From Sphingomonadales bacterium (lineage in GTDB: Bacteria > Pseudomonadota > Alphaproteobacteria > Sphingomonadales > Sphingomonadaceae): a DNA stretch of 53,739 bases. The position numbers were made by a program, and so were the translations under genes. Within the stretch, counting starts at the first letter, position 1. Every line of letters begins with the position of its first letter. Below the pieces are notes generated by a model that ran no database searches, was not told the DNA's origin, and was given only the letters and a program-made list of their open reading frames with translations. Shown one piece after another: positions 1,700 through 39,532 of the stretch. The stretch lies in assembly GCA_013297725.1 (NCBI GenBank), contig JAAFIB010000011.1, forward strand, positions 1-53,739, given 5' to 3'.

Positions 1700-3165
1700 G
1701 CTAGCACCCTTTGCAAAGCATCTTGCCAACCGGATAGTCGCGCCATCCGCGTGTCCGCACTCATCGCCGGGCTGAACCGTCCAACTTTGCCGCGCATCAC
1801 CGATGCCTCTGCCAGCGAAGCGTAGAGCCCAGCCCCAACGCCAGCCAGCATCGCCGCCCCCAATGCGGTGGTCTCGGCGAAATCGGGCCGCTCCACCTCA
1901 ACTGCCAGGATATCAGCCAAGTCCTGCACCATCCAGCCATTTGACACCATGCCGCCATCAACACGCAGCTCCGCCCAATCTGCGCCATCAGCAGCAAAGG
2001 CGGTTTTCAGGTCGTGGGTTTGGTGCGCCATCGCCTCCAGCGCGGCTCGGGCGACATGCGCTTTCTTGGCGGCAAAGGTAAGGCCATGGATTGCCGCACG
2101 GGCATGCGGTTGCCAATGCGGCGCGCCTAGCCCTGACAAAGCGGGGACGAGATAGACGCCGCCGTTGTCGGGCACGCTCGCCGCCAGTGGCTCAGTTTCG
2201 GGCGAGGCTGCAATCAGGCCAAGGTCATCCCGCAGCCATTGGATCAGGCTGCCCGCGACAAAGACGGAACCTTCGAGTGCATAATGGCGCTCTCCATTCA
2301 GCTGCCATGCCACCGTCGAAAGCAGCCGGTTATTGGAACGCGGCAGCGTGCGTCCTGTTTGCGTCAGGACAAACGCGCCGGTGCCAAATGTCGCTTTGGT
2401 CTGCCCGGGTTCAAGGCAGGATTGGCCGATTAGGGCCGCTTGCTGATCCCCCGCCATGCCGGTGATCGCAATTGCGCCGCCGAACAGTTCCGGGTCAGTA
2501 ACGCCTAATTGCCCCGCGCTGTCGCAAATCACGGGAAGTATCTCGCGCGGAACACCGAACAGGTCGAGCAAGCCATCGTCCCAATCGCCGCTGCCGATGG
2601 CCATCAATGCGGTTCGGCTGGCGTTACTTGCGTCGCTGATATGGGTTTTGCCTCCGGTCAGGCGGAATACCAAATAGGCCTCGACTGTACCGACCGCGAG
2701 ATGCTCGCCCGCCGCTTTCAATTGCGGCCAGTTGGCCAGCGCCCAACCGATTTTGGAGCCACTGAAATAGGGATCAAGCAGCAAACCGGTTTTGGCCTGA
2801 AGGTCAGGTTCATGGCCTGCGGATTTCAGCGTATCGCAAATGTCTGCTGTCCGCCGGTCTTGCCAGACGATCGCTGGGGCAAGCGGTTCGCCGGTGCGGC
2901 GGTCCCAAAACACCACCGTCTCGCGCTGATTGGTAATGCCAATGCCAGCGATAGCGGATGCGCCGCCTGCTTTGTCCACCATCTCGTGGGCGCATTCCAG
3001 CGTTAGGGTCCAGATTTCCGCGGCATCATGTTCGACCAGACCAGGCGCGGGATAATATTGCGTCAACGGCCGCTGCGCACTGCCAAGACATATGCCGTCC
3101 TTTGCAAACAGCATTGCCCGCGTCGATGTTGTGCCTTCGTCAATGACAAGGATGTGGTCAGTCAT
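1696..3165 (-). CDS. glpK: Glycerol kinase
   Basis: A 489-residue cytoplasmic FGGY-family kinase that phosphorylates glycerol to sn-glycerol 3-phosphate with ATP. The N-terminal phosphate-binding motif (DEGTTSTRAMLF, residues about 9-20), the ITNQRETVVFWDR block with its conserved Arg-Glu, the DPYFSGSKIGW segment, the MAGDQQAAL block with catalytic Asp and the ATFGTGAFVL adenosine motif are all present; length is normal for GlpK. No glpF or glpD is next to it. The gene leads a two-gene unit with the DUF2141 gene (ATGA overlap). Upstream lies a dispersed palindromic repeat rather than an obvious operator. Confidence 0.96.
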   Translation of the reverse strand: MTDHILVIDEGTTSTRAMLFAKDGICLGSAQRPLTQYYPAPGLVEHDAAEIWTLTLECAHEMVDKAGGASAIAGIGITNQRETVVFWDRRTGEPLAPAIVWQDRRTADICDTLKSAGHEPDLQAKTGLLLDPYFSGSKIGWALANWPQLKAAGEHLAVGTVEAYLVFRLTGGKTHISDASNASRTALMAIGSGDWDDGLLDLFGVPREILPVICDSAGQLGVTDPELFGGAIAITGMAGDQQAALIGQSCLEPGQTKATFGTGAFVLTQTGRTLPRSNNRLLSTVAWQLNGERHYALEGSVFVAGSLIQWLRDDLGLIAASPETEPLAASVPDNGGVYLVPALSGLGAPHWQPHARAAIHGLTFAAKKAHVARAALEAMAHQTHDLKTAFAADGADWAELRVDGGMVSNGWMVQDLADILAVEVERPDFAETTALGAAMLAGVGAGLYASLAEASVMRGKVGRFSPAMSADTRMARLSGWQDALQRVLA

Positions 3166-23488: not shown

Positions 23489-24843
23489 TTACAGCCGCCG
23501 CCATCGACCGGATTGCAACCCGCGAGGCCGAAGCTTTCCGCAAAGCTAATCCGCACTCGCTGGCGCTTGCCACCAAAGCTCAGGCCAACTGGTTCCAAGG
23601 CGTGCCGTTCCACTGGATGCTCGATTGGCCCAGCCCGGTGCCATTGGTCGCCGCCAAAGCCGAAGGCGCGACGCTGACCACTGTGGATGGCCGCGTGCTT
23701 GACGATTTCTGTCTTGGCGATACGGCCAGCATGTTCGGCCATTCGCCAAAACCGCTTGCTGATGCGCTTGCACGGCAAGCCAGTGAAGGGCTTAGCTATA
23801 TGCTGCCCACCGAGCGCGGTGTGGAGCTAGGCGAGATGCTGTCTGCGATGTTCCGCCTGCCACGCTGGCAAGTAACCACTACCGCCAGCGAAGCCAACCG
23901 CGCCGTCATCCGCTGGTGCCGGGGGATTACCGGTCGTGCCAAAATTCTGGTCTTTAATGGCTGCTATCACGGCGCGGTCGATGATGTGTTTGTTGACCTG
24001 AAACCCCATGCATCGGGCTGGGCACCCAAAGTCCGCGCCAGCGTCATCGGGCAGGTGCAGGATTTGCTGCCGACCACCACGGTGATTGAATTCAACGATG
24101 TTGCGGCACTCGAACGCGAATTGAAACGCGGCGATATCGCCTGTGTGCTGGCCGAACCTGTCATGACCAATGTCGGCATGGTCCGCGATGCGCCGGGCTA
24201 TTTAGACGCGCTGCGGCGTCTATGCAGCGAGACTGGCACGATATTGGTCTTTGACGAAACGCATACGATATCATCGGGATATGGCGGGCATAGCAACGCT
24301 TATGGCCCGCAACCTGATATGATGGTGATCGGCAAATCCATCGGTGGCGGCGTGCCGTGTGCGGTCTATGGCTTCAGCCAAGAGATCGCCGAACGGATGG
24401 CCGCATTGAACGCTAGCCGCCCGCCCGGGCACAGCGGGATCGGCACGACTTTATCGGCAAATGCGCTGGCGATTTCAGCAATGCACGCGATGCTGGGGCA
24501 AGTGATTACGCACGATGCTTATCGCCATATGCTGGAACAGGCACAGCGCTTGGTAAAGGGTATCGAGGGTGTGATTGCTGCGCACCAGCTGCCATGGCAT
24601 GTCGCCCAAGTCGGTGCGCGGGTGGAGTTTGTCTGCGCCGAAAAACCGCCGACCAATGGCAGCGAGGCCCGCGCCGCTATGAGCCATAGATTAGAGGCCG
24701 CAATCCATCTTGCGTTAGTCAATCGCGGCATTTTGCTTGCACCATTTCACAATATGATGTTGCTGTCGCCTGTGACAACTGACGGTCAAGTGGACCGGTT
24801 GGTTCATGAATTGAATACTGTGATCGGCGAGCTGCTGGAGTGA
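23485..24843 (+). CDS. Class III aminotransferase, glutamate-1-semialdehyde-mutase-like
   Basis: A 452-residue PLP enzyme, starting at the ATG overlapping the oxidase stop. Motifs: PLVAAKAEGATLTTVDGRVL, TTASEANRAVIRWCRGITGR, FNGCYHGAVDDVFVDL, CVLAEPVMTNVGMV, LVFDETHTISSGYGG (PLP Asp) and catalytic Lys in MMVIGKSIGGGVPCAVYG. The overall pattern resembles glutamate-1-semialdehyde 2,1-aminomutase relatives rather than GABA transaminase; it is not HemL, given the operon. Aspartate-family acceptors or gamma-glutamyl-aminobutanal could be handled; specificity is open. It overlaps the second ligase as GTGA. Confidence 0.83.
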   Translation: MITAAAIDRIATREAEAFRKANPHSLALATKAQANWFQGVPFHWMLDWPSPVPLVAAKAEGATLTTVDGRVLDDFCLGDTASMFGHSPKPLADALARQASEGLSYMLPTERGVELGEMLSAMFRLPRWQVTTTASEANRAVIRWCRGITGRAKILVFNGCYHGAVDDVFVDLKPHASGWAPKVRASVIGQVQDLLPTTTVIEFNDVAALERELKRGDIACVLAEPVMTNVGMVRDAPGYLDALRRLCSETGTILVFDETHTISSGYGGHSNAYGPQPDMMVIGKSIGGGVPCAVYGFSQEIAERMAALNASRPPGHSGIGTTLSANALAISAMHAMLGQVITHDAYRHMLEQAQRLVKGIEGVIAAHQLPWHVAQVGARVEFVCAEKPPTNGSEARAAMSHRLEAAIHLALVNRGILLAPFHNMMLLSPVTTDGQVDRLVHELNTVIGELLE

Positions 24844-26249
24844 ATATCTTGATTAAACGCGCAAAATCATCTGCAAATGTTGCACCACGCAGCGAGGCCG
24901 AGGCCTTTTTTGCGGCAAATCCGAACATTGATGCAGTGGACATGATCTACACCGATTTTGGCGGCGTGCCGCGCGGAAAGCGGCTGCGCCAACATGAAGT
25001 GATCGCCGTCTATGAAACCGGACGGATGTTCCCGGGATCAATTACTGTCGTCGATATCACCGGACAAGACACGGTCGAAACTGGTCTGGTCTGGGAAGAT
25101 GGTGATGCTGATCGTTCGATGAAGCCGATCCCCGGAACGCTGGTCAAAACGCCTTGGGCTGGCGAGAATGCTGCGCAATTCCTTGTCGATTTTTACGAAC
25201 TGGATGGCACCCCGCATGATCTGGATCCGCGCCATGTGCTGGGGCTGGTCAATGACCGCTTTGTTGCAGACGGCCTGACCCCTGCGGTTGCGGTTGAGCT
25301 GGAGTTCTATCTTGTCGATCCAAAACGCAGCCGCGACGGTATGATCCGCCCTGCGTCCCCCGACTATAGCAAAGACCGCCCGCGTAATGTGGAGGTTTAT
25401 GGCTTGCGCGAACTTGAGGATTTCCGCCCCTTCCTTGATGATCTTTACGCCTTTTGCGATGTGCAGGGGCTTCCGCTGGAAAGCGCGATTTCCGAATTTG
25501 CACCCGGGCAGTTTGAACTGACGCTTTGCTATAAACCCGACGTACTGCGGGCTTGCGACGATGCCATCATGTATAAACGCGTGGTAAAGGCGGCGGCGCA
25601 GCGCAACGGGCTTGAGGCGACGTTCATGGCAAAGCCGTTTGCGGATCAGGCTGGATCGGGCATGCACATCCATGTTTCGGTTAACGATGCCGCTGGCAGC
25701 AACATCTTTGCGGACGAAAACCCCGAAGGAACCGATGCCTTGCGCCACGCAATCGGCGGCATGATCGCGCATGTGGGGGACAGCTTTGCGCTGTTTGCCC
25801 CCAACGCCAACAGCTATCGCCGGTTTAAAGCGAACAGCTATGCGCCGGTTGCGCCGACATGGGGCGTCAACAATCGCACTGTGTCTTTTCGAATTCCGGC
25901 AGGTGCCGCCAAAACCCGCCATGTCGAACACCGCGCCTGCGGGGCTGATGCTAATCCCTATCTGGCGGTCGCAGCTGTGCTGGCGGCGATGCATCACGGC
26001 ATGACGAATGCGACCGAACCGGGGGCAGCTGTGGTCGGCAACGGCTATGATCGTGATGCCTCTGGTGATGATAAGCCGCCGAGCAACTGGTTCGCCGCTG
26101 TTGACCGTTTCCATGCCTCAGCCTTTGCCCGCGACTATCTGGGCGAACGGTTCGTCGATATGTTCAGCATCGTTAAACGGACCGAACAAGATCGCTATTT
26201 CAGCGAAGTGCCACGGCTGGATTATGACTGGTATTTGCGGAATGCGTGA
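24840..26249 (+). CDS. Glutamine synthetase-like gamma-glutamylpolyamine ligase, copy 2
   Basis: A 469-residue second member of the PuuA-like family, clearly diverged from the first: MIYTDFGGVPRGKRLRQHEV, AVELEFYLVDPKRS (metal ligand), SEFAPGQFELTL, SGMHIHVSVND (metal His), NANSYRRFKANSYAP and VSFRIPAGAAKTRHVEHR. It starts with a GTG overlapping the previous stop; the start region has no strong ribosome binding site because of the coupling. Two non-identical ligases in one operon suggest two amine substrates (for example putrescine and another diamine) or a heteromeric enzyme. Confidence 0.85.
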   Translation: MNILIKRAKSSANVAPRSEAEAFFAANPNIDAVDMIYTDFGGVPRGKRLRQHEVIAVYETGRMFPGSITVVDITGQDTVETGLVWEDGDADRSMKPIPGTLVKTPWAGENAAQFLVDFYELDGTPHDLDPRHVLGLVNDRFVADGLTPAVAVELEFYLVDPKRSRDGMIRPASPDYSKDRPRNVEVYGLRELEDFRPFLDDLYAFCDVQGLPLESAISEFAPGQFELTLCYKPDVLRACDDAIMYKRVVKAAAQRNGLEATFMAKPFADQAGSGMHIHVSVNDAAGSNIFADENPEGTDALRHAIGGMIAHVGDSFALFAPNANSYRRFKANSYAPVAPTWGVNNRTVSFRIPAGAAKTRHVEHRACGADANPYLAVAAVLAAMHHGMTNATEPGAAVVGNGYDRDASGDDKPPSNWFAAVDRFHASAFARDYLGERFVDMFSIVKRTEQDRYFSEVPRLDYDWYLRNA

Positions 26250-26330
26250 CCCCAAAAAATCGCTTTGAATTTAGACAGTTTTGCGTCAGCATTCGCAATA
26301 GGGACTCGCTATAAAAAACGGAGCAAAGCC

Positions 26331-27440
26331 ATGGATATCAAGACACTGTTGGACAATGCAGCAAACCGCCGCTCGTTATTAAAGGGGATGGGCGTCGCCG
26401 CTGTCGGCTTAACGTTTACCGGTGCGCTTGCAGGCTGTGGTGAAAAGGCCGGGAAAAAGCTGGCCAATGGTGAGGAAGGCGCGCTGAACCTGTATAATTG
26501 GGATGATTATATGGGAGAAACAACGCTGGAGGATTTCAAAGGCGCATCGGGTGTCGATGTGAAAATGGACCTGTTTGAGAATAACGATACGTTGTTCGCC
26601 AAATTCCGCGCGGGCAATCCTGGCTATGACTTGATCGTGCCATCGAATGATTTTGTTGAGCGTATGGTGCAGGCCAACATGCTTGAGAAGCTCGATAAGG
26701 CTCAAATTCCAAATTGGAAGAATGTCGCTCCGGAATTTCAGGATGTGCCCTATGACAAAGGCCGCGAATATTCTGCACCCTATACGTGGCTTGCGCTTGG
26801 TATCGGGTATCGCAAATCAAAAGTGAACCCTGCGCCCGATAGCTGGAAAGTGCTGCTCGACAGTGACCAGTATAAAGGCCGTATCGCGGTGCTGTCTGAA
26901 GCGGGCGACATGTTCCGCCTCTATGCCAAATATATGGGCAAGTCAGTAAACGCGATCACGCCTGCCGACATCAAAACCATCGAAGCGATGATGATTAAGC
27001 AAAAGCCCAACATTGCCAAATTCCATGACGATGACGGGCAAGATTTGCTGGCCAAAGGCGAGGTCGATCTGGTGCTGGAATATAATGGCGATATAGCCCA
27101 GCTGGCAGCCGAAGATGACGATGTTGCTTTTGTGATTCCCAAAGAGGGCAGTCAGCTTAATTCGGACAATCTATGCATTCCAAAAGGCGCGAAGCACCCC
27201 AAAAATGCTCACGCATTTATCAATTTCATCCTTGATGCAGAGAACGGCAAGAAGCTAACGGAAACCATTAAATATCCAACACCCAATGCAGCGGCAAAGG
27301 CTTTGATGCCGGATAGTTATAAGACGAACCCGATTACATACCCCCCCGCTGATCTGCTGGCAAAATGCGAATATGCTAAGTTTAATGCAGAGCTGCAGCC
27401 GCTTTTTGAGGAGGCCTTTACCCGCGTCAAAGCGGCCTGA
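26331..27440 (+). CDS. potF: Polyamine ABC transporter, substrate-binding protein (PotF/PotD type)
   Basis: A 369-residue substrate-binding protein with an unusual export signal: NRRSLLKGMGVAAVGLTFTG carries a twin-arginine-like RR motif and ends in a lipobox LAGC, so a lipid-anchored, possibly Tat-exported protein is expected. Mature part begins with the family-typical LNLYNWDDYMGETTLEDF (ligand Trp/Asp/Tyr), has YDLIVPSNDFVERM and LVLEYNGDIAQLA. ATG at 26331 with CGGAG upstream is chosen, since earlier in-frame starts would lack a signal structure. First of four importer genes. Confidence 0.92.
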   Translation: MDIKTLLDNAANRRSLLKGMGVAAVGLTFTGALAGCGEKAGKKLANGEEGALNLYNWDDYMGETTLEDFKGASGVDVKMDLFENNDTLFAKFRAGNPGYDLIVPSNDFVERMVQANMLEKLDKAQIPNWKNVAPEFQDVPYDKGREYSAPYTWLALGIGYRKSKVNPAPDSWKVLLDSDQYKGRIAVLSEAGDMFRLYAKYMGKSVNAITPADIKTIEAMMIKQKPNIAKFHDDDGQDLLAKGEVDLVLEYNGDIAQLAAEDDDVAFVIPKEGSQLNSDNLCIPKGAKHPKNAHAFINFILDAENGKKLTETIKYPTPNAAAKALMPDSYKTNPITYPPADLLAKCEYAKFNAELQPLFEEAFTRVKAA

Positions 27441-27464
27441 TCGGCCCATTAGGGGAGAGGGACT

Positions 27465-28370
27465 ATGGCAGAACAAGATTGGAAACAACAGAAGCGGCCG
27501 TTTGCGGCGGTTGCCACTGTGCCCTTATTTTGGACGCTGATCTTTTTCCTTATCCCGATGGGTTTTGTCTGGTTCTACAGCTTTGGCCGCAATGTCGGGC
27601 TGACCGAAATCGACATTGTCGGAACGCTGGACAATTATAAGCGCGCTACCGAATGGCTGTATCTGGGAATTTTCTTGAAAAGCCTTGCCGTTGCCGCGTT
27701 GGTGACGCTCATCTGCCTGATCGTCGGTTTTCCCGTGGCAATGGCGATCACCTTTGCCAGCGAGAAATGGCGGCCGTGGTTGCTGCTTGGCATCATGCTG
27801 CCGTTCTGGACCAACCTGTTGATCCGCACTTATGCGCTGATGATTGTGATGGGGCAACAGGGCTATGCCAATTCAGGCCTTGGTGCGTTGTGGAATGGAG
27901 CGAGCTGGTTGAAAACACTGGTCGGTCTGCAACCGCTATCGACATGGGAGCCGCTGCCGTTGTTGTATAACAACTTCGCGGTGGTTGTCGGCCTTGTTTA
28001 TGTCCATCTGCCTTTCATGGTTTTGCCGCTCTATTCGGCGCTCGACCGGTTGGACAAAAGCCTGATCGAGGCGAGCCTTGATCTGGGGGCAGGGCATCTG
28101 AAGACGCTGTTTAAGGTCGTCGTGCCGCTTGCCGCACCGGGCATTATTGCTGGCGTTATGATCACACTAATCCCCGCGCTTGGTGCGTATTTGACGCCCG
28201 ATTTGATGGGCGGAACCGATAGCCAGATGATTGCGAACGTAATCGAACGCCAGTTTAAGCGCGCCAATGATTGGCCATTTGGCGCGGCGCTCTCGTTCTT
28301 GCTGATCTATGTCATGTTCGCCCTGATCGCGATGCAGGGTCTGCGCAAGAAAACCGGGGAGGTTCGCTGA
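27465..28370 (+). CDS. potH: Polyamine ABC transporter permease (PotH/PotB type)
   Basis: A 301-residue inner-membrane permease with about six membrane helices (first: VPLFWTLIFFLIPMGFVWFY). The cytoplasmic EAA loop that contacts the ATPase is EASLDLGAGHLKTLFKVVVP, followed by APGIIAGVMITLIPALGAYL. GGGGAGAGGG stands just before the ATG. Stop and next start share one base (TGATG). Forms the heterodimeric channel with the next gene. Confidence 0.94.
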   Translation: MAEQDWKQQKRPFAAVATVPLFWTLIFFLIPMGFVWFYSFGRNVGLTEIDIVGTLDNYKRATEWLYLGIFLKSLAVAALVTLICLIVGFPVAMAITFASEKWRPWLLLGIMLPFWTNLLIRTYALMIVMGQQGYANSGLGALWNGASWLKTLVGLQPLSTWEPLPLLYNNFAVVVGLVYVHLPFMVLPLYSALDRLDKSLIEASLDLGAGHLKTLFKVVVPLAAPGIIAGVMITLIPALGAYLTPDLMGGTDSQMIANVIERQFKRANDWPFGAALSFLLIYVMFALIAMQGLRKKTGEVR

Positions 28371-29215
28371 TGGCTCTCTTCACCCGAACTGTGCGTGCGC
28401 CGCTGGAATATAGCAAATCTTTGTGGATGCGCGGCTGGGTCACGATGGTGATGCTGTTTCTCTATATCCCGCTGTTTGTCCTGATGGCGTTCAGTTTCAA
28501 CGACAGCAAACGCAATGTCGTGTGGCGCGGGTTCACCACCAAATATTATGGCGTAGCGTGGGAGAACGACCAGCTGTGGAACGCGATGATGAACTCGCTA
28601 ACCATCGCCTTTTTCGCCACGATTTTCAGTCTGGTTATCGGATCAATGGCGGCAGTGATGCTGTGGAGGTTTCGTTTCCCCCTGAAATCTGCGGTCGATG
28701 GCACGATGTCGCTGCCGATCATTGTTCCCGAAATCTGCTTGGGTGTGGCGTTTCTCGTCTTTTTTTCGACCGTCGGTTGGCCAACTGGCCTTGGTTGGCC
28801 ATTCAATTTGGGCGCAATCATTATCGCGCACGTTACTTTCTGCTTTCCCTTTGTGACGATGGTCGTCCGCGCGCGGTTGGCGACGTTCAATCGCGAACAG
28901 GAAGAAGCGGCAAAGGATCTGGGCGCTGGTGAGTGGCAGGCGTTTCGCGATGTCCTGATCCCGCATATAAAGCCTGCGTTGGTGTCTGGGGCGTTGCTGG
29001 CGTTCACGCTCAGCCTTGATGATTTCGTCATCACATTTTTCACCAGCACGCCCGGAACCGACACCTTCCCGGTCTTGGTCTATTCCTTGGTCAAGCGCGG
29101 GGTTACGCCAGACGTTAATGCGGCCTCGACAATCCTTATTCTCTTTACCGTTCTCCTCACCGCCATCGCTCTGAAACTTCAGGGCGCGAAAGCCCTTGCG
29201 AGTACCCACTCATGA
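28370..29215 (+). CDS. potI: Polyamine ABC transporter permease (PotI/PotC type)
   Basis: A 281-residue permease. The ATG at 28370, coupled by TGATG to potH, gives MALFTRTVRAPLEYSKSLWM; a longer frame (from 28271) runs into potH and is rejected. First helix VMLFLYIPLFVLMAFSF and NDSKRNVVWRGF are typical of PotC/PotI; the EAA loop is EEAAKDLGAGEWQAFRDVLI and ALVSGALLAFTLSLDDFVIT follows. The stop overlaps the ATPase gene (ATGA). Confidence 0.94.
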   Translation: MALFTRTVRAPLEYSKSLWMRGWVTMVMLFLYIPLFVLMAFSFNDSKRNVVWRGFTTKYYGVAWENDQLWNAMMNSLTIAFFATIFSLVIGSMAAVMLWRFRFPLKSAVDGTMSLPIIVPEICLGVAFLVFFSTVGWPTGLGWPFNLGAIIIAHVTFCFPFVTMVVRARLATFNREQEEAAKDLGAGEWQAFRDVLIPHIKPALVSGALLAFTLSLDDFVITFFTSTPGTDTFPVLVYSLVKRGVTPDVNAASTILILFTVLLTAIALKLQGAKALASTHS

Positions 29216-30333
29216 CCGAACCCATCATCCAAATCCGCAACGTCACCAAACGCTTTGGCAAAGTCGCGGCGGTGGATAATGTCTCGCTCGACATCATGGC
29301 GGGCGAGTTCTTCGTTTTGCTAGGGCCATCGGGCTGCGGCAAAACCACATTGCTGCGCATGATCGCGGGTTTTGAAGTGCCGACCGAGGGCCAAATCCTG
29401 ATCGACGGACAGGATATGAGCCGCGTTCCGCCGAACAAGCGCCCGGTCAATATGGTGTTCCAAAGCTATGCCGTGTTCCCGCATATGTCGGTGGCGGATA
29501 ACGTTGCTTATGGGCTGAAAATCGCAGGCGTTGGTCGCGGTGAGCGTGAGGATCGCGTGCGTGAGGCGCTTGATCTGGTGAAGCTGGGCGGTTTTGAAGA
29601 CCGGATGCCCGATCAGATGTCGGGTGGTCAGCGGCAACGTGTGGCACTGGCGCGCAGTCTGGTGATGCGGCCCAAAGTTTTGTTGCTGGATGAGCCGCTG
29701 TCGGCGCTTGACGCAAAACTACGCGCGCAGATGCAGTTTGAACTCGCCGATTTGCAGGATGAAGTCGGCATCACCTTTGTCACCGTCACGCACGACCAGG
29801 ATGAGGCGCTTTCGATGGCCAGCCGCATTGCGGTGATTAACAAGGGCGAAGTCGCGCAATTGGCGACGCCGTCTGACCTTTATGAATATCCGGCCAACCG
29901 CTTTGTCGCCGATTTCGTCGGGTCAGTGAATATCTTTGAAGGTAAGCTGATCATCGATGAGCCCGACAAGGCCGCTGTCGATTGCCCGGGCCTTGGTAAA
30001 GTCTATCTGAACCACGGCGTCACAGGGCCGCATGGTGCCGATGTCTGGGTCGCGTTGCGGCCAGAGAAGATGTATCTGCATGTGCAGGGTAAAGGCAAAG
30101 CGGTTGAGGCCGCCGCCAAAGATGCACCAGAGGGGCATAATTTCGCCCGTGGGCAGATTAAAGGGATGAGCTATCTGGGCGATATCACCCTGTTTGAAAT
30201 CAAGCTGGATTCTGGTGCGATGATCCGCGTTTCGCGGCCCAACCTGTCACGGCATGATCAGGAAGATTTCACTTGGGATGATAAGGTTTCGATGCACTGG
30301 CGCGCGGATAGTCCGGTTGTGTTGTTGGGCTAG
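29212..30333 (+). CDS. potG: Polyamine ABC transporter ATP-binding protein (PotG/PotA type)
   Basis: A 373-residue ATPase. Walker A LGPSGCGKTTLLRMI, Q-loop VFQSYAVFPHMSV, signature MSGGQRQRVALARSL, Walker B VLLLDEPLSALD and switch His in TVTHDQDEALSMA are complete. A C-terminal TOBE domain (about 285-370, with MSYLGDITLFEIKL) completes the PotA/PotG layout. Last gene of the operon; a palindromic repeat follows. Confidence 0.95.
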   Translation: MTEPIIQIRNVTKRFGKVAAVDNVSLDIMAGEFFVLLGPSGCGKTTLLRMIAGFEVPTEGQILIDGQDMSRVPPNKRPVNMVFQSYAVFPHMSVADNVAYGLKIAGVGRGEREDRVREALDLVKLGGFEDRMPDQMSGGQRQRVALARSLVMRPKVLLLDEPLSALDAKLRAQMQFELADLQDEVGITFVTVTHDQDEALSMASRIAVINKGEVAQLATPSDLYEYPANRFVADFVGSVNIFEGKLIIDEPDKAAVDCPGLGKVYLNHGVTGPHGADVWVALRPEKMYLHVQGKGKAVEAAAKDAPEGHNFARGQIKGMSYLGDITLFEIKLDSGAMIRVSRPNLSRHDQEDFTWDDKVSMHWRADSPVVLLG

Positions 30334-31852: not shown

Positions 31853-34294
31853 TTAGTTGCCGCCGAAATTGATCTTTGCGGTGATGCCGAAATAGCGGTC
31901 AGCTTCGCGCGGGATGATATAGCGGAATGATCCGCCGGGTCCGCCCGACACGATCGACGATGCAAAGCTTTGGTCGAACAGGTTCTTGACCAAGAACGCG
32001 ACGCGCCATGCCTCATTGGGATCAGTCAGAGCGATGCTGGCATCAAAGGTTGCATAGCCATCCACGGTCGAACCCAGACGGTTGGCAAGGTTTGATGTCA
32101 ATTCATAGGTCTGATCGGATTGCATCGCGACGCTGGCGTTAAATTGCACATCGGCAAAACCGCCTGTCTGCCAATCATACTGCGCACCGACGGTCATCTT
32201 ATACTTCGGCGCATTGGCAAGCGGCGTTCCCTTTGCAATCAGCGCGGATGCAGGGGCACCCACAGGCAGACGGAAATTGTCGACCTGAGCATCAGTATAG
32301 GCAAAGCCGCCGTTGACGGTGAAGTTGTCTGATGGTTTCAACAAGAAGTCGAGTTCAAGACCCTTTGTTGAAACATCGCCCGCATTGGTTAGACGCGCAA
32401 CAACTTGTCCTGCGACAATATCGGGGTTGTTCGCTTGGTAGTTTTTGTACTTGGCATAGAACACCGCGAGGTTGACCGTAGCCGCACCGTCAAGGAAGCT
32501 GGTTTTCAATCCACCTTCATATGAGTTTACGGTTTCCGGAGCGATCCGGTTAGCGCCCGATCCCATCAGGTTGAAAAAGATGTTATAGGCTGGGCCTTTG
32601 TATCCGCGGGTGTAGCTGACATAGGCCATCACGTCTTCGCTAAGGTCATATTGCAGCGCGGCTTTACCGGAGACGTTGCTGGCCGATGATCTGGTGCGGA
32701 ACGGCACTTTATTGGCGAGTAGCGAAGCTGCCCGTTGCAGCTGGTCAATCGTCAGCGGGGTTGCAAGCGATGGGTTCAGCGCAAGTAAACGGAGATATTC
32801 GTTAAACGTGCCTTGATCGAAAGTAGGCTGAATACCCGGGGCCGAATTGGGCCGGCCAGCGCCATCCAATGTCAGGCCGGTCGCAACACGGCGCAGATTC
32901 ACTGATAGTTTATCATTGGTGTAACGCAACCCGCCGATGAACCGGAAGCTATCGGAGAAGTTGAGCGTTGCTTGGCCGAACGCCGCCATGTTTTTGAACA
33001 CCGAACCAAATGCCGCTGTGCCGGTTGGCGTTGTAATTGTCGATACGCCGGGTGTCGTCGAACAGGGCGTAAGGCCAGGGACGACAGCGGGCAGCGTAGA
33101 GGCCGAGCAGGTCACAACCGAGCGCGAGAAAACACGGTCGGAATCCGCCTTGGAATAATATCCGCCGATGACATATTCCAAAAACTGTCCGGTTGGTGAC
33201 GAGATACGGATTTCCTGCGTCAATGTCTTTGACGTTTGAGGGCCGCGATCATGCAGCTGGTTTAAGCCGATATAGGGCCGGTCCAACCAGTCACCGTCGC
33301 GGATTTCCAGATTGTCCCATCCGCGATAGGATGTGATTGATGTCAGCGTGTGCGAGCCAAGCTCGATATCCGCCTGCATCGATACGCCCCAGCTTTTTTC
33401 CTCTGTGGCAGTGACAAGGTTTTGCGCAATGCGGCGGGTTTCGTCGCGGGCGATACGTGTGCCGCTAAGCGCAAGAGCCGCAGCGTTGCTTGGCGTGGTG
33501 CCAATGATTTCGGCGCAGCAATCATCCTTTGCTTTGCGCCAGTCGCCGCGGAATGTCAGCTGGACAGTCTCGCCCAAATCAGCCTCAAGTACGCCGCGCA
33601 CGCCGTAATGTTTGAAACCGTTGACCTTGTTTCCGGTGGTCAGGTTGCTGATGTTGCCATCATAATTGCTATAAAAACCGGTAACGCGCGAACGGATATT
33701 TTCACCCAGTGGCACGTTGAATGTCGCGCGACCGCGATATTCAGACTTGGTGAAATACGATGCTTCGACCTCAGCTTCGAATTCATTGGTTGGGCGCTTT
33801 GTCACGATGCTGACGACACCGGCGGATGCGTTTTTGCCGAACAGCGTGCCTTGAGGGCCGCGCAACACTTCGATCCGCTCAACATCGAACAGGTCGGTAA
33901 AGCCTTCGCCAGCGCGGCTTAGGACAACGCCGTCAAGCACCGTTGCAACCGATGGTTCTGCGGCGATTGAAAAGTTGATTGTGCCAACACCGCGCAAGAA
34001 CAGCGCTTGGTTCAGCGTCGTTCCCGATTTGCGGAAATTCAGCGACGGAACCAGATATTGGGCGTTCTCTAGCGTGATGCCGCCGCTGTTGGCGATGGCT
34101 TCGCCGCCGATAACCGATACGGCAAGGGGAATGTCTTGCAGGTTCTCTTCGCGTTTTTGCGCGGTAACAATGATCTCGTTGCTATCAACAGTTTCCTCGG
34201 CACCATCTTGTGCAAACGCAGGAACGGATAGGCCAAATGCAAGGGCGGTTGCGCCAAGAAGTGCGGCGCGCGCAATGCGGTTGGGGGCTGTCAT
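31853..34294 (-). CDS. TonB-dependent outer-membrane receptor
   Basis: An 813-residue receptor from the ATG at 34294, with GGGAGA upstream and a signal peptide (ARAALLGATALAFGLSVPAFAQ). The TonB box region is EIIVTAQKREENLQDIP, typical of the sphingomonad FecA/BtuB-like group, then a plug with FLRGVGTINFS and RIEVLRGPQGTLFGKNASAG, and a 22-strand barrel ending in YFGITAKINFGGN. It would import a substrate across the outer membrane using TonB energy. Divergent from the sulfoquinovosidase operon over 207 bp, so sulfoquinovose, its glycerol glycoside or a sulfolipid fragment is a reasonable guess for the ligand. A frame extending to 34429 is not used. Confidence 0.92.
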   Translation of the reverse strand: MTAPNRIARAALLGATALAFGLSVPAFAQDGAEETVDSNEIIVTAQKREENLQDIPLAVSVIGGEAIANSGGITLENAQYLVPSLNFRKSGTTLNQALFLRGVGTINFSIAAEPSVATVLDGVVLSRAGEGFTDLFDVERIEVLRGPQGTLFGKNASAGVVSIVTKRPTNEFEAEVEASYFTKSEYRGRATFNVPLGENIRSRVTGFYSNYDGNISNLTTGNKVNGFKHYGVRGVLEADLGETVQLTFRGDWRKAKDDCCAEIIGTTPSNAAALALSGTRIARDETRRIAQNLVTATEEKSWGVSMQADIELGSHTLTSITSYRGWDNLEIRDGDWLDRPYIGLNQLHDRGPQTSKTLTQEIRISSPTGQFLEYVIGGYYSKADSDRVFSRSVVTCSASTLPAVVPGLTPCSTTPGVSTITTPTGTAAFGSVFKNMAAFGQATLNFSDSFRFIGGLRYTNDKLSVNLRRVATGLTLDGAGRPNSAPGIQPTFDQGTFNEYLRLLALNPSLATPLTIDQLQRAASLLANKVPFRTRSSASNVSGKAALQYDLSEDVMAYVSYTRGYKGPAYNIFFNLMGSGANRIAPETVNSYEGGLKTSFLDGAATVNLAVFYAKYKNYQANNPDIVAGQVVARLTNAGDVSTKGLELDFLLKPSDNFTVNGGFAYTDAQVDNFRLPVGAPASALIAKGTPLANAPKYKMTVGAQYDWQTGGFADVQFNASVAMQSDQTYELTSNLANRLGSTVDGYATFDASIALTDPNEAWRVAFLVKNLFDQSFASSIVSGGPGGSFRYIIPREADRYFGITAKINFGGN

Positions 34295-34501
34295 GTGATA
34301 TTCTCCCGTTAGTATTGGCCGCGTTTTCGCTGACCTTTTGTGTCCTTGACGTGGCGGCAGAAAATTATCGCACCCCACTATCCGCCCAATGATGTGCCGA
34401 ACGACCCTTGAATTGTCAAGCGGTGTCATATACGTTCAAAGCTGATTGGCGCAGACTGTTGCAAGGATGCAATAGGTCAGCTTGATGGGAGAAGAGGCGC
34501 A
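34295..34501. promoter_or_regulatory. Divergent control region of the sulfoquinovose locus
   Basis: Between the receptor and glucosidase start codons. TTGCA-AGGA-TGCAA (34459-34472) is a perfect short dyad about 30 nt before the glucosidase start, within a wider AAGCTGA...TCAGCTT pair (about 34439-34482). These are candidate sites for the LacI-type regulator encoded in the operon. GGGAGAAGAGG before 34502 is the ribosome binding site. Confidence 0.45.
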
Positions 34502-36511
34502 GTGACGCTCGCTTTTGCAGCGACTGAAAACGGCTTTGAGTTGCGTATTGGCGCGACTGTTTTGTTGCGCCATGATGCTGTTGCGCCTGTGATTGAGCTG
34601 GGTCTGGGCGCTGCCGATGTCGATATGCATCGCGGCAATTTCCGGATGGAGGATCATCTTGCGGAACGCTTGCCGCTTGATCGCTATGCGGTTGAGGGCG
34701 CGGTGGTGCAGCTTTGGTCATCACAAAAGCCTGAGTTTGCAGCGACTGCCAAAATCCGCATCGATGGCGCGAAGGCGTGGCTGGAGATCAATAGCAAGCA
34801 TAGCGAAGCAAACCGCATCTGGGTGCATTTCCCGCGCGATCCGTCAGAATCCATCTGGGGCGGGGGCGAGCAAATGTCTTATCTGCGCCTTAACGGCAGG
34901 CGTTTTCCGTTTTGGACATCCGAACCCGGGGTTGGCCGCGACAAGTCAACCGCGCTGACCAAGATCATGGACGAAAGCGGCAATGCGGGCGGCGATTACT
35001 GGACGACCAATTATCCGCAACCAACATGGCTAAGCTCGGCCCATTATGCAGTGCACAGCAATTGCACGCATTGGTCTGCACTGGACCTAAGCACGGACGG
35101 CGTATCGACTTACGAATGTTGGACGAACCAGCTGTCGTTGGAATTCTTCGCCAGCGATACTCTGCCCGAATTGGTCGGTGCACTTTCGGACCGTTTCGGC
35201 AAACCTGCACCGCTTCCCGATTGGGCAATCGGCGGCGCGATTGTGGGCCTAAAAGAGGGTGAGGCAAGCTTTGCGCGGCTGGAAAAATACGCAGACGCGG
35301 GTGTCGCGATCAGCGGCCTGTGGTGCGAAGACTGGGTCGGCATCCGCCAGACCAGCTTTGGCCGCCGCCTGTTCTGGGACTGGCAGTGGAATGCTGCGCG
35401 CTATCCCGATTTGCCAGCGCAGATCGCGTCTTTGGCTGAACGCGGCATTCGCTTTTTGGGCTATGTGAACCCCTATATCGCCAATGACGCCGCGATGTTT
35501 GCGGAAGGGTCAGCGGCTGGCTATTTCGCGTTGAAACTTGACAGCGACGATGTTGCACTTGTCGACTTTGGAGAATTCGACTGCGGCGTTGTCGATTTCA
35601 CTAACCCTGCTGCGTGCGACTGGTTTGCTGACCGCGTGATCGGACGCGAGATGCTCGATTTTGGTCTTTCCGGATGGATGGCCGATTTCGGCGAATATCT
35701 GCCCACCGATATCCGCCTGCTCGATGGCAGCGACCCGATGGAGGCGCATAACCGCTGGCCAGTATTATGGGCCAAGGTCAATGCCGATGCCATTGCGCGG
35801 CGGGGAAAAACCGGCGAGACTGTGTTCTTTATGCGCGCTGGATTTTCCGGTGTTCAGGCGCATTGCCCGCTGTTGTGGGCGGGCGACCAATGTGTCGATT
35901 TCAGCCGTCATGATGGCATCGGCACGACGATCACCGCTGCGCTTTCCTCTGGCCTCCTCGGCAATCTGGTCAGTCACCACGATGTCGGCGGTTATACCAG
36001 CCTGCACGGCAATATCCGCACAGAGGAATTGCTGCACCGCTGGATCGACCTCGGCGCCTTCACGCCGGTGATGCGCAGTCATGAGGGCAACCGGCCCGAT
36101 GATAATCTACAGATCGATTCAACTCCCGAACTGCTTGCCCATTTTGCGCGGATGAGCCAAATCCATGCGCGTCTAGCGCCCTATGTGCGGCATGTGCTGG
36201 ATCAGGGGCAAGCAACTGGCCTGCCTGCACAGCGGCCGTTGTTTCTGCACTATGACGCGCCTGAGTATCATGCGGTGCAGGACCAGTATCTCTATGGTGC
36301 TGACCTGATGGTCGCTCCAGTAATCGAGGCGGGCGTAATGGGCCGCGATGTTATCATCCCCGACGAAGGCTGGGCTGATCTATGGAGCGGCAAACCGCTG
36401 AGCCCGGGGACGACATGGTTTGACGCCCCGCATGGCAAACCCCCTGTGGCGTATCGCCTTGACAGCAGCTTCGCTTGGCTGTTCGCTGAACTGCAAAGGG
36501 AGTTTGGCTGA
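34502..36511 (+). CDS. GH31 sulfoquinovosidase (YihQ/SmoI type)
   Basis: A 669-residue glycoside hydrolase releasing sulfoquinovose from its glycosides. It aligns throughout with the E. coli YihQ pattern as I recall it: GGGEQMSYLRLNGRRFPFWT, GNAGGDYWTTNYPQPTW, WMADFGEYLPTD with nucleophile Asp395, and AGDQ with acid Asp462. The sulfonate-binding set is K251 (GLKEG), E276 (WCEDW), R289 and W292 (GRRLFW) and Y498 (GGYTS), that is the KERWY subtype described for the Agrobacterium enzyme rather than E. coli QQRWY. It starts with GTG at 34502. No signal peptide, so a cytoplasmic enzyme. Start of a four-gene operon, TGATG overlap with the next gene. Confidence 0.88.
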   Translation: MTLAFAATENGFELRIGATVLLRHDAVAPVIELGLGAADVDMHRGNFRMEDHLAERLPLDRYAVEGAVVQLWSSQKPEFAATAKIRIDGAKAWLEINSKHSEANRIWVHFPRDPSESIWGGGEQMSYLRLNGRRFPFWTSEPGVGRDKSTALTKIMDESGNAGGDYWTTNYPQPTWLSSAHYAVHSNCTHWSALDLSTDGVSTYECWTNQLSLEFFASDTLPELVGALSDRFGKPAPLPDWAIGGAIVGLKEGEASFARLEKYADAGVAISGLWCEDWVGIRQTSFGRRLFWDWQWNAARYPDLPAQIASLAERGIRFLGYVNPYIANDAAMFAEGSAAGYFALKLDSDDVALVDFGEFDCGVVDFTNPAACDWFADRVIGREMLDFGLSGWMADFGEYLPTDIRLLDGSDPMEAHNRWPVLWAKVNADAIARRGKTGETVFFMRAGFSGVQAHCPLLWAGDQCVDFSRHDGIGTTITAALSSGLLGNLVSHHDVGGYTSLHGNIRTEELLHRWIDLGAFTPVMRSHEGNRPDDNLQIDSTPELLAHFARMSQIHARLAPYVRHVLDQGQATGLPAQRPLFLHYDAPEYHAVQDQYLYGADLMVAPVIEAGVMGRDVIIPDEGWADLWSGKPLSPGTTWFDAPHGKPPVAYRLDSSFAWLFAELQREFG

Positions 36512-37551
36512 TGGGGGAAAGGGCGAATATCCGTGATGTCGCGGCGCTGGCCGGAGTTGCGGTCAAAACTGTCAGCCGCGTGCTGAACGATCATCCCTAT
36601 GTCAGCACTAAGATGCGCGAAAAAGTTGAGGCGGCGATGACCGAGCTTAACTTTCATCCCAGCGTTGCCGCACGGGTTTTGGCAGGAACGAAATCGGGGC
36701 AAGTCGCGCTGATTTATGACAATCACTCGCCGCATTATATGCATCAGATTATGATGGGCTGTTGGGATCGGTGTAATGCCGAGGGGTTGCGGCTGATCGC
36801 GCAGCCGGTGGATGTGGCTGACCCTAAAATCGGCGAACAGGTGCGCGGCATGGTGCGCGAAACGCATGTTGACGGTGTGATCCTGTCGTCGCCCGTTACC
36901 GATTGCGCCGCGGTGCTCAACACGCTGGAGGCGCTGAACATGCCGTTCGTTCGCATTTCGCCGGGCACAAACCATGCGCTGACCAGTTCGGTGTTCATGG
37001 ACGATGTGCAGGCGGCGGATGACATGACGACGCATATGATCAATGCCGGGCATCGCCGGATCGGCTTTATCATTGGTCATGAAAACCATCTGGCCAGTAA
37101 AGACCGGCTCTCTGGATACTGCCGCGCGTTGGAACGGGCCGGCATCGCCTATGCCGCAGACCTTGTTGAACCGGGCGAGTTTGATTTTGACAGTGGCAAA
37201 GCTGCGGCGGAGAAATTCCTGAACCTGCCTAATCCGCCAACTGCGATTTTTGCCTCGAACGACGATATGGCATCGGGTGTGCTCGCCGTTGCGCATCGCT
37301 ATCATGTGCCGGTTCCCGAAATGCTTTCGGTGGCAGGCTTTGATGATACGACCCTTGCGCAAGTCGTCTGGCCGCCGCTGACCACCATCCGCCAACCGGT
37401 CCGCGATCTGGCCGACACTGCCACGCAATTACTGCTTGGCGATGGCGGGCTAGAACATCGCCGTTTGCCGCATGAATTGATCACCCGCGAATCCATCGCG
37501 GCCCCCCGAACCAAAATGCTTACCCTCAGAAAGAAGACAGAAAACCAATGA
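36511..37551 (+). CDS. LacI-family regulator of the sulfoquinovose operon
   Basis: A 346-residue repressor: helix-turn-helix NIRDVAALAGVAVKTVSRVL, hinge LNFHPSVAARVLAGTKS and sensor domain with GVILSSPVTDCAAVL, RRIGFIIGHENHLASKDRLS, AIFASNDDMASGVLAVAHRY and FDDTTLAQVVWPPLTTIRQP. It lies within the operon, overlapping the glycosidase stop and the reductase start (ATGA), so it is co-expressed and probably autoregulates the operon and the divergent receptor. An inducer of sulfoquinovose type is inferred from context. Confidence 0.9.
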   Translation: MGERANIRDVAALAGVAVKTVSRVLNDHPYVSTKMREKVEAAMTELNFHPSVAARVLAGTKSGQVALIYDNHSPHYMHQIMMGCWDRCNAEGLRLIAQPVDVADPKIGEQVRGMVRETHVDGVILSSPVTDCAAVLNTLEALNMPFVRISPGTNHALTSSVFMDDVQAADDMTTHMINAGHRRIGFIIGHENHLASKDRLSGYCRALERAGIAYAADLVEPGEFDFDSGKAAAEKFLNLPNPPTAIFASNDDMASGVLAVAHRYHVPVPEMLSVAGFDDTTLAQVVWPPLTTIRQPVRDLADTATQLLLGDGGLEHRRLPHELITRESIAAPRTKMLTLRKKTENQ

Positions 37552-38453
37552 GCAACCTCCCCAATACACCCGCTACCCGCCAACTTGGCAGCAGCGGCAT
37601 TGAAATTTCCAGTCTCGCCTGGGGCATGTGGCGCTTTGCCGGACAAGATGTGGCGGCAGCGACAGAGCTGGTGCATGCGGCGCTGGATGCCGGGATCACT
37701 TTGTTCGACACCGCCGATATCTATGGTTTTGGTGAACAGGGTTTTGGCGCGGCGGAGGAACTGCTGGGTGAAGTGTTCAACGAAAATCCCGACCTGCGCG
37801 GGCGGATGGTGCTGGCGACTAAGGGCGGAATTACCCCGCCGGTGCCCTATGACAGCAGTGCCGAATATCTGACCAAAGCCATCGATAACAGCCTGCGCCG
37901 GTTGCGGGTCGATCAGGTCGATCTGTGGCAGATTCACCGCCCCGATATCCTGACGCATCCATCGGAAATTGCGCGGACGATTGAGAATGTGGTTAAGGCC
38001 GGCAAAGTGCGCACCTTTGGCGTGTCGAACTTTACGACGGCACAGATTGCAACTTTGGCGCAGCTTTGCCCTGTGCCGATTGTTTCGACACAGCCCGAAT
38101 TGTCGCCCTTGTGTATTGACACGGTCGAGAATGGTGAGCTTGATCAAGCGATGGCGATGGACATGGCGGTGCTGGCATGGTCGCCATTGGGTGGCGGGCG
38201 GATTGCTGATCCAAAAGATCAGCGTGAGCAAGCCGTGGCAGCCGCGCTTTCGGGTGTTGCAGCGGCGCACGGTGTGTCGCGGACAGCGGCGGCGTACAGC
38301 TGGATCATGGCGCATCCAGCCCGGCCAGTGCCAATTGTCGGCTCGCAAAATCCGGCGCGGATTGCCGAGGCGGCGGATGCGTTCAAAATCCAGTGGACCC
38401 GTGCCGATTGGTATGCGGTGCTGGTCGCTGCTCGCGGAGTGCCGCTGCCATGA
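37548..38453 (+). CDS. Aldo/keto reductase (SmoB-like)
   Basis: A 301-residue TIM-barrel NAD(P)H-dependent reductase. The catalytic tetrad is complete: Asp and Tyr in DTADIYGFG, Lys in LATKGG, His in QIHRPD; the nucleotide-binding end has PIVGSQNPARIAEA. In the sulfo-SMO pathway an aldo/keto reductase (SmoB) reduces 6-oxo-glucose, the product of sulfoquinovose oxidation, to glucose. The position between sulfoquinovosidase/LacI and the monooxygenase, with ATGA overlaps on both sides, strongly suggests this role; biochemically it could also be another AKR. Confidence 0.85.
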   Translation: MSNLPNTPATRQLGSSGIEISSLAWGMWRFAGQDVAAATELVHAALDAGITLFDTADIYGFGEQGFGAAEELLGEVFNENPDLRGRMVLATKGGITPPVPYDSSAEYLTKAIDNSLRRLRVDQVDLWQIHRPDILTHPSEIARTIENVVKAGKVRTFGVSNFTTAQIATLAQLCPVPIVSTQPELSPLCIDTVENGELDQAMAMDMAVLAWSPLGGGRIADPKDQREQAVAAALSGVAAAHGVSRTAAAYSWIMAHPARPVPIVGSQNPARIAEAADAFKIQWTRADWYAVLVAARGVPLP

Positions 38454-39532
38454 GTGATGGGGCCATGACTGGTAAGCTTGAGATCAGCTGGTTCTCTGCG
38501 CTTTGCGACGATGACTATGAATTTCTGGGGCAACCCGATCCGATGCTGGCGTCCAGCTGGGAGCATTGCCGCAACATCGTGCTGAATGCGGAAAAAGGTG
38601 GGTTTGACAATATCCTACTGCCATCGGGCTATGCGCTGGGTCTTGATACTACCGCCTTTGCCAGCGCGATTGCTGTGCTAACGTCGCGTATCAAACTGCT
38701 GATGGCGGTGCGTATTGGCGAGGCTTGGCCGCCGCAATTGGCGCGGCAGATCGCGACGCTTGATCAGATTGCAGGGGGACGCCTGAACATCAATATCATC
38801 TCCTCCGACTTGCCGGGGGACAAGATGGATAGCGAACCCCGCTATCGCCGCACTGTCGAGGCGATGCTGATCCTGAAGACTTTGCTGAACGGCGAACATC
38901 TGAACCATCAGGGCGAGCATTATCAGATCGACATTGACCCGCCGCGGATGAAAACAGTCAGCGGCAAATGCCCGCCGCTGTATTTTGGCGGCCTATCGCC
39001 AGCAGCGCGGGCCGCGGCAGCAGAGGGTTGCGACGTATACCTGATGTGGCCAGAAACGTTGCAGGGCGCGAGGGATCTGATCGCCGATATGACCGCGCGT
39101 GCTGCGACATTTGGTCGGACCCTGAAATACGGGTTCCGCGCGCATGTGATTGTGCGGGAAACCGAAGCCGAGGCGCGCGACTATGCCAATCGCTTGCTGT
39201 CGAAATTGGATGCCGAACAGGGTGAGGCGATCAGGCAGAAGTCACTCGACACCGCGACCTATGGCGTCGCGCGCCAAACCGAGTTGCGCGAAGCATCGGC
39301 GGCGAATGACGGCTATATAGAGGACAATCTGTGGACTGGCATTGGCCGTGCGCGGTCAGGCTGCGGCGCGGCGATTGTTGGCGACCCCGATCAGGTGCTG
39401 GCCAAGTTGAAAGCGTATCAGGCGCTGGGGATCGAAGCGTTTATCCTGTCGGGCTATCCGCATATCAATGAGTGCGACATGTTTGCGCGCTATGTGCTGC
39501 CTAGGTTGGATCATGAGGGGTTAAAACTCTAA
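38450..39532 (+). CDS. SsuD-like flavin-dependent sulfonate monooxygenase (SmoC-like)
   Basis: A 360-residue LLM-class FMNH2-dependent monooxygenase. SsuD family marks: NILLPSGYALGLDTTAFASA, QIATLDQIAGGRLNINIIS, FRAHVIVRET with the Arg and His corresponding to the active-site pair of SsuD, GRARSGCGAAIVGDP and the C-terminal ALGIEAFILSGYPH. Known members split C-S bonds of alkanesulfonates to aldehyde plus sulfite. In the operon context the substrate should be sulfoquinovose, giving 6-oxo-glucose. ATG at 38450 overlaps the reductase stop (ATGA). No flavin reductase gene is adjacent, so reduced flavin must come from elsewhere. Confidence 0.87.
   Translation: MSDGAMTGKLEISWFSALCDDDYEFLGQPDPMLASSWEHCRNIVLNAEKGGFDNILLPSGYALGLDTTAFASAIAVLTSRIKLLMAVRIGEAWPPQLARQIATLDQIAGGRLNINIISSDLPGDKMDSEPRYRRTVEAMLILKTLLNGEHLNHQGEHYQIDIDPPRMKTVSGKCPPLYFGGLSPAARAAAAEGCDVYLMWPETLQGARDLIADMTARAATFGRTLKYGFRAHVIVRETEAEARDYANRLLSKLDAEQGEAIRQKSLDTATYGVARQTELREASAANDGYIEDNLWTGIGRARSGCGAAIVGDPDQVLAKLKAYQALGIEAFILSGYPHINECDMFARYVLPRLDHEGLKL

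Follow-up and report, generated by a model that had tools for sequence, protein, structure and literature searches.

Two described pathways for the oxidative desulfonation of sulfoquinovose (SQ) come close to the locus considered here: the sulfo-SMO pathway of Agrobacterium tumefaciens with its Smo enzymes, reportedly the work of Sharma et al. in 2022, and the sulfo-ASMO pathway of the sphingomonad Novosphingobium aromaticivorans DSM 12444, reportedly that of Liu et al. in 2021. The Smo cluster of Agrobacterium includes a linked flavin reductase. The locus itself occupies positions 31853-39532 of a 53,739-nucleotide stretch of DNA (hereafter, the window; contig JAAFIB010000011.1 of assembly GCA_013297725.1) from a Sphingomonadales bacterium whose genome comprises 3,017,613 bases in 148 contigs. 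It consists of a gene for a TonB-dependent receptor, divergent from genes for a putative GH31 sulfoquinovosidase (SQase), a LacI-family regulator, an aldo/keto reductase (AKR) and a monooxygenase, with a conserved 18-bp element, TGTCAAGCGGTGTCATAT, between the receptor and the GH31 gene. The locus likely specifies a sulfo-ASMO (sulfo-SMO) route that is served by an unlinked MFS importer and belongs to a scattered regulon held together by a shared LacI operator.

The sulfo-ASMO pathway, with SquD and SquF, has been described in N. aromaticivorans, whose cluster is said, in the accessible parts of these papers, to lack SsuE, other flavin reductases being presumed to serve (PMC9594981, PMC12890257). 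The available portion of a further study (PMC13372026) predicts the pathway in Novosphingobium and reports its uptake of labelled SQ in incubations from mangrove and estuary, and a Sphingomonas protein appears among the GH188 cluster representatives in the accessible part of another (PMC10755693). The bacterium is of the same taxonomic order as N. aromaticivorans, and the locus in the window has the enzyme set of that species (YihQ, SquD, SquF), like it has no SsuE in the cluster and would draw its reduced flavin from elsewhere, which makes this pathway a nearer reference than the Agrobacterium one with which the sequence-only reading had compared it; the TonB receptor, operator, MFS importer and flavin-reductase fusion found here, on the other hand, go unmentioned in the accessible text on N. 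aromaticivorans (PMC9594981, PMC12890257). The likeness to the A. tumefaciens pathway extends to an SQase, a flavin monooxygenase, an AKR and the products sulfite and glucose, but the accessible parts of reviews describe an ABC transporter for SQ-glycerol in A. tumefaciens, in contrast to the TonB receptor, the candidate unlinked MFS protein and the proposed LacI control here. By gene content, the same three-step chemistry is also encoded in Roseobacter-type clusters (L249, L250, L253), whose monooxygenases are 53-55% identical to the one studied here and are accompanied by an AKR, whereas their SQase is of another family (Gfo/Idh/MocA, GH188-type), their regulator is GntR, their transporter is of the TRAP type and their flavin reductase is linked.

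Given that SsuE is said to be missing from the N. aromaticivorans cluster, it was already known that such a cluster can lack a flavin reductase, and the core finding, right but not new, adds one more member to a pathway familiar from this group. As far as the literature searched shows, what is new is the scattered regulon, together with its element and the candidates for importer and flavin reductase, for which no description was found in the accessible text of the literature on SQ uptake, its regulation and flavin-reductase fusions. As the MFS importer and the hydrolase-flavin-reductase fusion carry the control element of the pathway operon within the genus, both gene kinds are now directly testable. 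The unlinked transporter and flavin reductase would escape surveys limited to the few genes around the operon, and the element offers a simple handle for finding the remaining members of the regulon in other sphingomonads.

In the proposed scheme, sulfoquinovosyl glycerol or SQ would enter through the TonB receptor and then cross the inner membrane by way of the unlinked MFS protein, after which the GH31 enzyme would free SQ in the cytoplasm. The monooxygenase, using reduced flavin, would cleave the C-S bond, releasing sulfite and leaving 6-dehydroglucose, which the AKR would turn into glucose. Sulfite or sulfate would leave through a PF03601 (YeiH-type) exporter, and the freed glycerol would be burned via GlpK and GlpD. 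An 18-bp operator common to the operon and the MFS/PF03601/GlpD unit would put both under the control of LacI, with derepression by SQ or its glycoside, and since one LacI protein would thus act on both units, the regulon would be scattered over the chromosome. The reduced flavin would possibly come from the hydrolase-flavin-reductase fusion, whose counterparts bear the operator in many sister genomes.

All five genes named by the sequence-only reading are present where it placed them, and their Pfam domains agree with it (Table 1). The plus-strand genes overlap by 1, 4 and 4 bases (GH31/LacI, LacI/AKR and AKR/monooxygenase), and the receptor start at 34294 is followed by what is, by eye, a signal-peptide-like stretch, the longer open reading frame (ORF) that starts at 34429 being an extension. 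The sulfoquinovosidase residues that had been claimed for the GH31 protein hold up: with PRK10426, the equivalog model of YihQ type, it reaches 834 bits (cut-off 553), the closest relatives of solved structure are 5ohy (E 1.4e-247) and 5ohs (E 6e-247), which we take to be the Agrobacterium SQase, and in the alignment with these structures (chain positions, counted by hand) it keeps R283, W286 and Y491, presumably the sulfonate contacts, and D455, presumably the acid/base. As it has no obvious signal peptide, the enzyme is probably cytoplasmic.

The monooxygenase is the sole PF00296 match in the whole genome. Its earlier description as "SsuD-like" is apt for the luciferase-type domain but imprecise as a label, as the protein scores 259 bits against the SsuD equivalog TIGR03565 (cut-off 518) and is 52% identical to 7olf/7oh2, which we take to be SmoC, as against 38% to the SsuD-type chain 7jv3. 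By sequence, it fits the SquD/SmoC type. These identities were used in place of a monooxygenase tree, in which SsuD and a second LLM protein were long-branched and 3 of 19 inner branches were starred. For the AKR, the best solved relatives are 7bbz (E 1e-45) and 7bby (E 2.5e-45), the latter presumably SmoB. Two points count against a SmoB role: other AKRs, including YdhF, follow closely (E ~1e-41), such that sequence alone does not separate SmoB from the rest, and the protein is only about a third (~35%) identical to SmoB-type enzymes and their relatives. Thus the homology to SmoC and SmoB that the sequence-only reading proposed to check for the products of the genes starting at 38450 and 37548 is seen for the first and does not stand apart from that to other AKRs for the second, and because other AKRs score nearly as well, the role of the AKR rests on its linkage to the monooxygenase.

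Table 1. Features of the SQ locus, with positions in the window.
Feature	Position	Strand	Basis or remark
TonB-dependent receptor	31853..34294	-	PF07715/PF00593 (Plug + TonB barrel), above curated cut-offs
Proposed LacI operator, TGTCAAGCGGTGTCATAT	34414..34431	+	Conserved intergenic block
Putative GH31 sulfoquinovosidase (SmoI/YihQ type)	34502..36511	+	GTG start; PF01055/PF21365 above cut-offs
LacI-family regulator	36511..37551	+	PF00356 and PF13377 above cut-offs
AKR, proposed 6-dehydroglucose reductase (SquF/SmoB role)	37548..38453	+	PF00248 above cut-off
Proposed FMNH2-dependent SQ monooxygenase (SquD/SmoC role)	38450..39532	+	PF00296 above cut-off

This linkage is well conserved. At least 589 relatives of the monooxygenase were confirmed, and the best 80, nearly all sphingomonads by title, were analysed; picked by similarity to the monooxygenase of the window, they represent its relatives rather than SQ clusters in general. 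The AKR gene is no more than 300 bp away from that of the monooxygenase in 78 of the 80 loci and in 62 of the 63 that offer at least 9.9 kb of upstream sequence. In these 63, with genes labelled by tblastn and the TonB receptor and SQase scored within 10 kb of the monooxygenase, an SQase is present in 61 (GH31 in 39, GH188-type in 22), a TonB receptor in 61, LacI in 53, MFS in 40, PF03601 in 23, GlpD in 12, SorA in 6 and GlpK in 4, together with an SsuE-like FMN reductase in 9 and a TRAP match (24%) in 1. Translated homology searches found a PF01613-like flavin reductase in none of the 63, nor homologues of one rhizobial SQ-cluster ABC binding protein/permease. The SQase scores, the monooxygenase identity and this linkage are consistent with the pathway call of the sequence-only reading, SQ oxidative desulfonation, and with its suggestion that uptake begins at a TonB receptor. 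The replacement of an ABC importer by such a receptor is indeed seen, but it is the rule in the loci examined (61/63 versus 0/63) and not special to this one.

The TonB receptor is proposed, from its context, to bring sulfoquinovosyl glycerol or SQ through the outer membrane. In N. pentaromativorans US6-1, the receptor, GH31, LacI, AKR and monooxygenase genes occur in the same order and are followed by genes for glycerol-3-phosphate dehydrogenase and glycerol kinase, an arrangement that suggests sulfoquinovosyl glycerol to be the substrate. In a sister genome (G009), a single cluster holds the MFS, receptor, GH188-type SQase, LacI, AKR, monooxygenase and a PF01613-like flavin reductase. Identity to the window's receptor (best segment) is 38-39% for the one next to the operon in some close relatives (L002, L003, L012, L022) and 69-70% in others (L004, L007-L010), so that the receptor, too, seems to have been swapped at a fixed place.

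An alignment of the receptor/GH31 intergenic region from the window and 14 relatives contains one strongly conserved block, and contig C66 of the same genome has a near-identical one in the gap that separates its PF03601 and MFS genes; CG-centred LacI palindromes common to the window group were not found in the intergenic regions. Operon and element are both present in Sphingorhabdus contaminans KCTC 32445 and S. wooponensis 03SU3-P (L022 and L012). The pattern TGTCWWGCGGTGTCATAT (18 bp, two A/T positions), written to cover the window, its relatives and the C66 copy, has exactly two exact matches in the 3.02-Mb genome, at the operon and on C66; as the pattern was built on both, finding these two is partly by construction, but the absence of others is not. 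With up to 3 mismatches allowed, there are four further matches, against one for the reversed pattern, and 3-mismatch sites lie on C76, C82 and C90. A site with 2 mismatches (C86:14625) was set aside as chance; it lies between sigma-factor-like and redoxin-like genes (by eye) and has no SQ gene nearby. Weak matches of this kind mean nothing, because any match at up to 3 mismatches is also found in 11 of 100 shuffles of the window and in 2 of 200 of L094, which counts against giving them weight as operators. Among 2000 random 160-bp windows from 13 loci of the genus, themselves site-bearing, so that windows may overlap a site, 20 have a match at 0-1 mismatch, 4 at 3 mismatches and 1976 at 5 or more.

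Across 45 genomes of the genus, this one included, the pattern at up to 1 mismatch marks 73 sites in 32 genomes, and the reversed pattern none. All but one of the sites (72/73) are at three gene kinds: this operon (32), the MFS gene (29) and the hydrolase-flavin-reductase fusion (11). By coordinates, 28 sites stand 71-162 bp before the MFS gene, 27 at 3.9-4.1 kb before the monooxygenase and 11 at 25-26 bp before a match to the fusion; the remaining 7 comprise 5 by GH31 on broken contigs, 1 between the MFS and GlpD genes (G024) and 1 in another ORF (G023:C46), which is large, encloses the site, and led to its being regarded as chance. Of the 45 genomes, 37 have the monooxygenase (E <= 1e-60), 31 of them together with the element, and in one (G031) the element is present but no monooxygenase match. 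Against a strict tie between element and pathway stand six genomes that have the monooxygenase but not the element at one mismatch, in three of which the MFS gene lies ~7 kb from the monooxygenase.

The element also follows the regulator. The start of LacI is readable in 63 loci, the window included, and the element (scored at up to 2 mismatches) is present in 40 of these, all with GH31; the 23 loci that lack it have a GH188-type SQase (16), GH31 (6) or neither (1), and two of the six GH31 loci begin inside GH31, so that the region of the element is absent from their sequence. The LacI proteins of element-bearing loci have V at position 18 in 38 of 40 cases, as against S-I at positions 17-18 in 19 of the 23 others. 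The element thus tracks the DNA-binding domain of LacI, which, with the proviso that related genes are not independent samples, supports the idea that the operon's own LacI is the binder and agrees with the LacI control that had been claimed. A GH31 locus with V18 in LacI and no element (L061) argues in the opposite direction. The element might instead be the site of another regulator, for example of sulfur or carbon metabolism, as it is an imperfect inverted repeat to which LacI binding is only proposed, and as, on C66, it shares bases with the predicted PF03601 start codon. This is unlikely in view of the covariation with LacI positions 17-18 and the near-restriction of the element to SQ genes within the genus.

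The second unit behind the element supplies a candidate for the importer. Translated searches with the relatives used found no MFS, ABC, TRAP or flavin-reductase relative in window positions 20001-52000, consistent with the claim that the locus has no linked ABC importer or flavin reductase. The search for an MFS permease elsewhere in the genome, also suggested by the sequence-only reading, led to C66, where the best match to the MFS protein of the L029 cluster is encoded next to the genome's only PF03601 match (YeiH-type, a putative sulfate exporter), followed by a GlpD gene. The MFS, PF03601 and GlpD genes flank the same operon in other sphingomonads. Since its gene has the same DNA element as the operon, and in view of where the sites fall in the genus, the C66 MFS protein is probably the missing inner-membrane importer. 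An MFS protein (E <= 1e-60) is present in 36 of the 45 genomes, a count that includes genomes with only a 31-32% match. On single contigs it is encoded 279, 290, 309 and 444 kb from the monooxygenase in four genomes and 7-8 kb away in five; the other monooxygenase-bearing genomes have the two on different contigs or have no listed MFS match of at least 35%.

Several observations weigh against this assignment: the C66 protein is only 36% identical to the L029 MFS, the MFS proteins at the element are of two types (67-73% and 35-37% identical to that of this genome), and the PF03601 relative tested scores 123 bits against the 232.6-bit curated cut-off of the YeiH sulfate-exporter model. The low identity and the two types mean that the substrate of the MFS protein is not guaranteed to be the same. 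They would also suit an arrangement in which the operon is sulfo-ASMO and the MFS/PF03601/GlpD unit serves a separate pathway (e.g., for a glycerol phosphodiester or another sugar acid) that merely shares the regulator, as would the finding that the L029 MFS relative hits general transporter models only, with scores far under the cut-offs. Such an arrangement is distinctly improbable, however, as GlpD, PF03601, MFS and receptor genes are clustered with SQ genes in 9 of the 80 loci, as G005 has GlpD, PF03601 and MFS at its SQ genes and G018 has MFS and PF03601 there (GlpD not seen), and as a putative sulfate exporter suits a desulfonating pathway well. PF03601 and GlpD genes occur beside both MFS types (L264, L265), as in a swap of importers under a kept operator. 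The genome further contains four TauE matches and one PF00174 match.

The nearest solved structures of the monooxygenase, 7olf/7oh2, are titled methanesulfonate sulfonatase and alkanesulfonate monooxygenase, titles that look like automatic names because the proteins are 87-89% identical to a monooxygenase from an SQ-type cluster. In this cluster, from Rhizobium SL42, the monooxygenase gene lies between a GntR gene and an AKR gene, with a flavin reductase next and a Gfo/Idh/MocA (GH188-type) gene nearby, and the AKR is 79.6% identical to the part of 7bby used as query. That the window monooxygenase is a general alkanesulfonate/methanesulfonate enzyme for sulfur scavenging, as these titles might be taken to say, is hence very improbable in view of this identity, its score below the SsuD cut-off, its place in an overlapping SQase operon and the GlpD and GlpK genes in 12 and 4 of the 63 related loci.

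As for the flavin reductase, a search of the genome for the families PF01613 and PF03358 found one PF01613 match, an alpha/beta-hydrolase-flavin-reductase fusion on contig C104. The sole PF03358 match, on C77, is a partial one (35 bits) in a flavodoxin-like ORF and was not taken as SsuE. Relatives of the fusion were collected at 30 loci of the genus, 25 of which have a readable start. Copies that are 65-69% identical to the fusion of this genome have the element at up to 2 mismatches in 17 of 22 cases, 18-25 bp before the start taken. Against a role for the fusion in this genome, its own copy has no element (best match, 7 mismatches) and groups with the copies of G007, G031 and G040 (74-78%) and not with the element-bearing ones, and none of the three readable copies of this type (itself, G007 and G031) has the element; G031 and G040 hold both types. 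Eleven fusions have a hydrolase nucleophile elbow that deviates from the usual motif, and the type of this genome has lost the histidine-serine pair (by eye). As the C104 copy lacks the element, the link to a flavin reductase is weaker here than in relatives: the unlinked flavin reductase that had been postulated has a candidate counterpart in the only PF01613 protein found, but not one under the shared element, and the fusion is perhaps the flavin reductase for the monooxygenase in this genome. Other members of the genus may obtain reduced flavin differently: in G008 and G009 a PF01613-domain-like protein is encoded directly after the monooxygenase, while G001, G005 and G024 have a gene for an FMN-reductase-like protein behind GlpD and G018 has one close to its MFS and PF03601 genes, PF03358 being confirmed by Pfam for the G024 protein only.

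It appears somewhat more plausible than otherwise that Sphingorhabdus-like bacteria have one LacI-controlled SQ regulon of up to three chromosomal units: TonB-SQase-LacI-AKR-monooxygenase; MFS-sulfite/sulfate exporter-GlpD; and a dedicated flavin reductase, fused to a (possibly decayed) hydrolase domain, that serves the monooxygenase. On this view, sister genomes with compact clusters and others with scattered ones would show the pathway being taken apart with its operator kept, while importer, receptor and flavin reductase were swapped at a fixed control site.

Some neighbouring and related genes deserve mention. A glycerol kinase gene at window positions 1696-3165 (minus strand), ~31 kb from the operon, encodes a protein that shares 69% identity with the GlpK next to an SQ cluster of Sphingobium (L031); a search for the element near this gene found none. 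A glutamine-synthetase-like gene followed by an ABC operon (window 24840-30333) is probably unrelated to SQ, and the ABC operon itself (26265-30333; binding protein, two permeases and ATPase) is of polyamine type by eye. In Rhizobium sp. WSM4643 (L083, 1-15059), a monooxygenase 70% identical to that of the window is encoded beside a sulfo-ED-looking cluster with an SQase and an ABC importer, and an AKR is absent from the annotation of this cluster; two SQ routes possibly lie side by side there. Finally, plasmid pKN1 of Sphingobium yanoikuyae (L251, 2914-17075) bears a GH188-type SQ cluster together with a phytanoyl-CoA-dioxygenase-like gene, a sulfatase, a second LLM oxidoreductase and a putative sulfate exporter.

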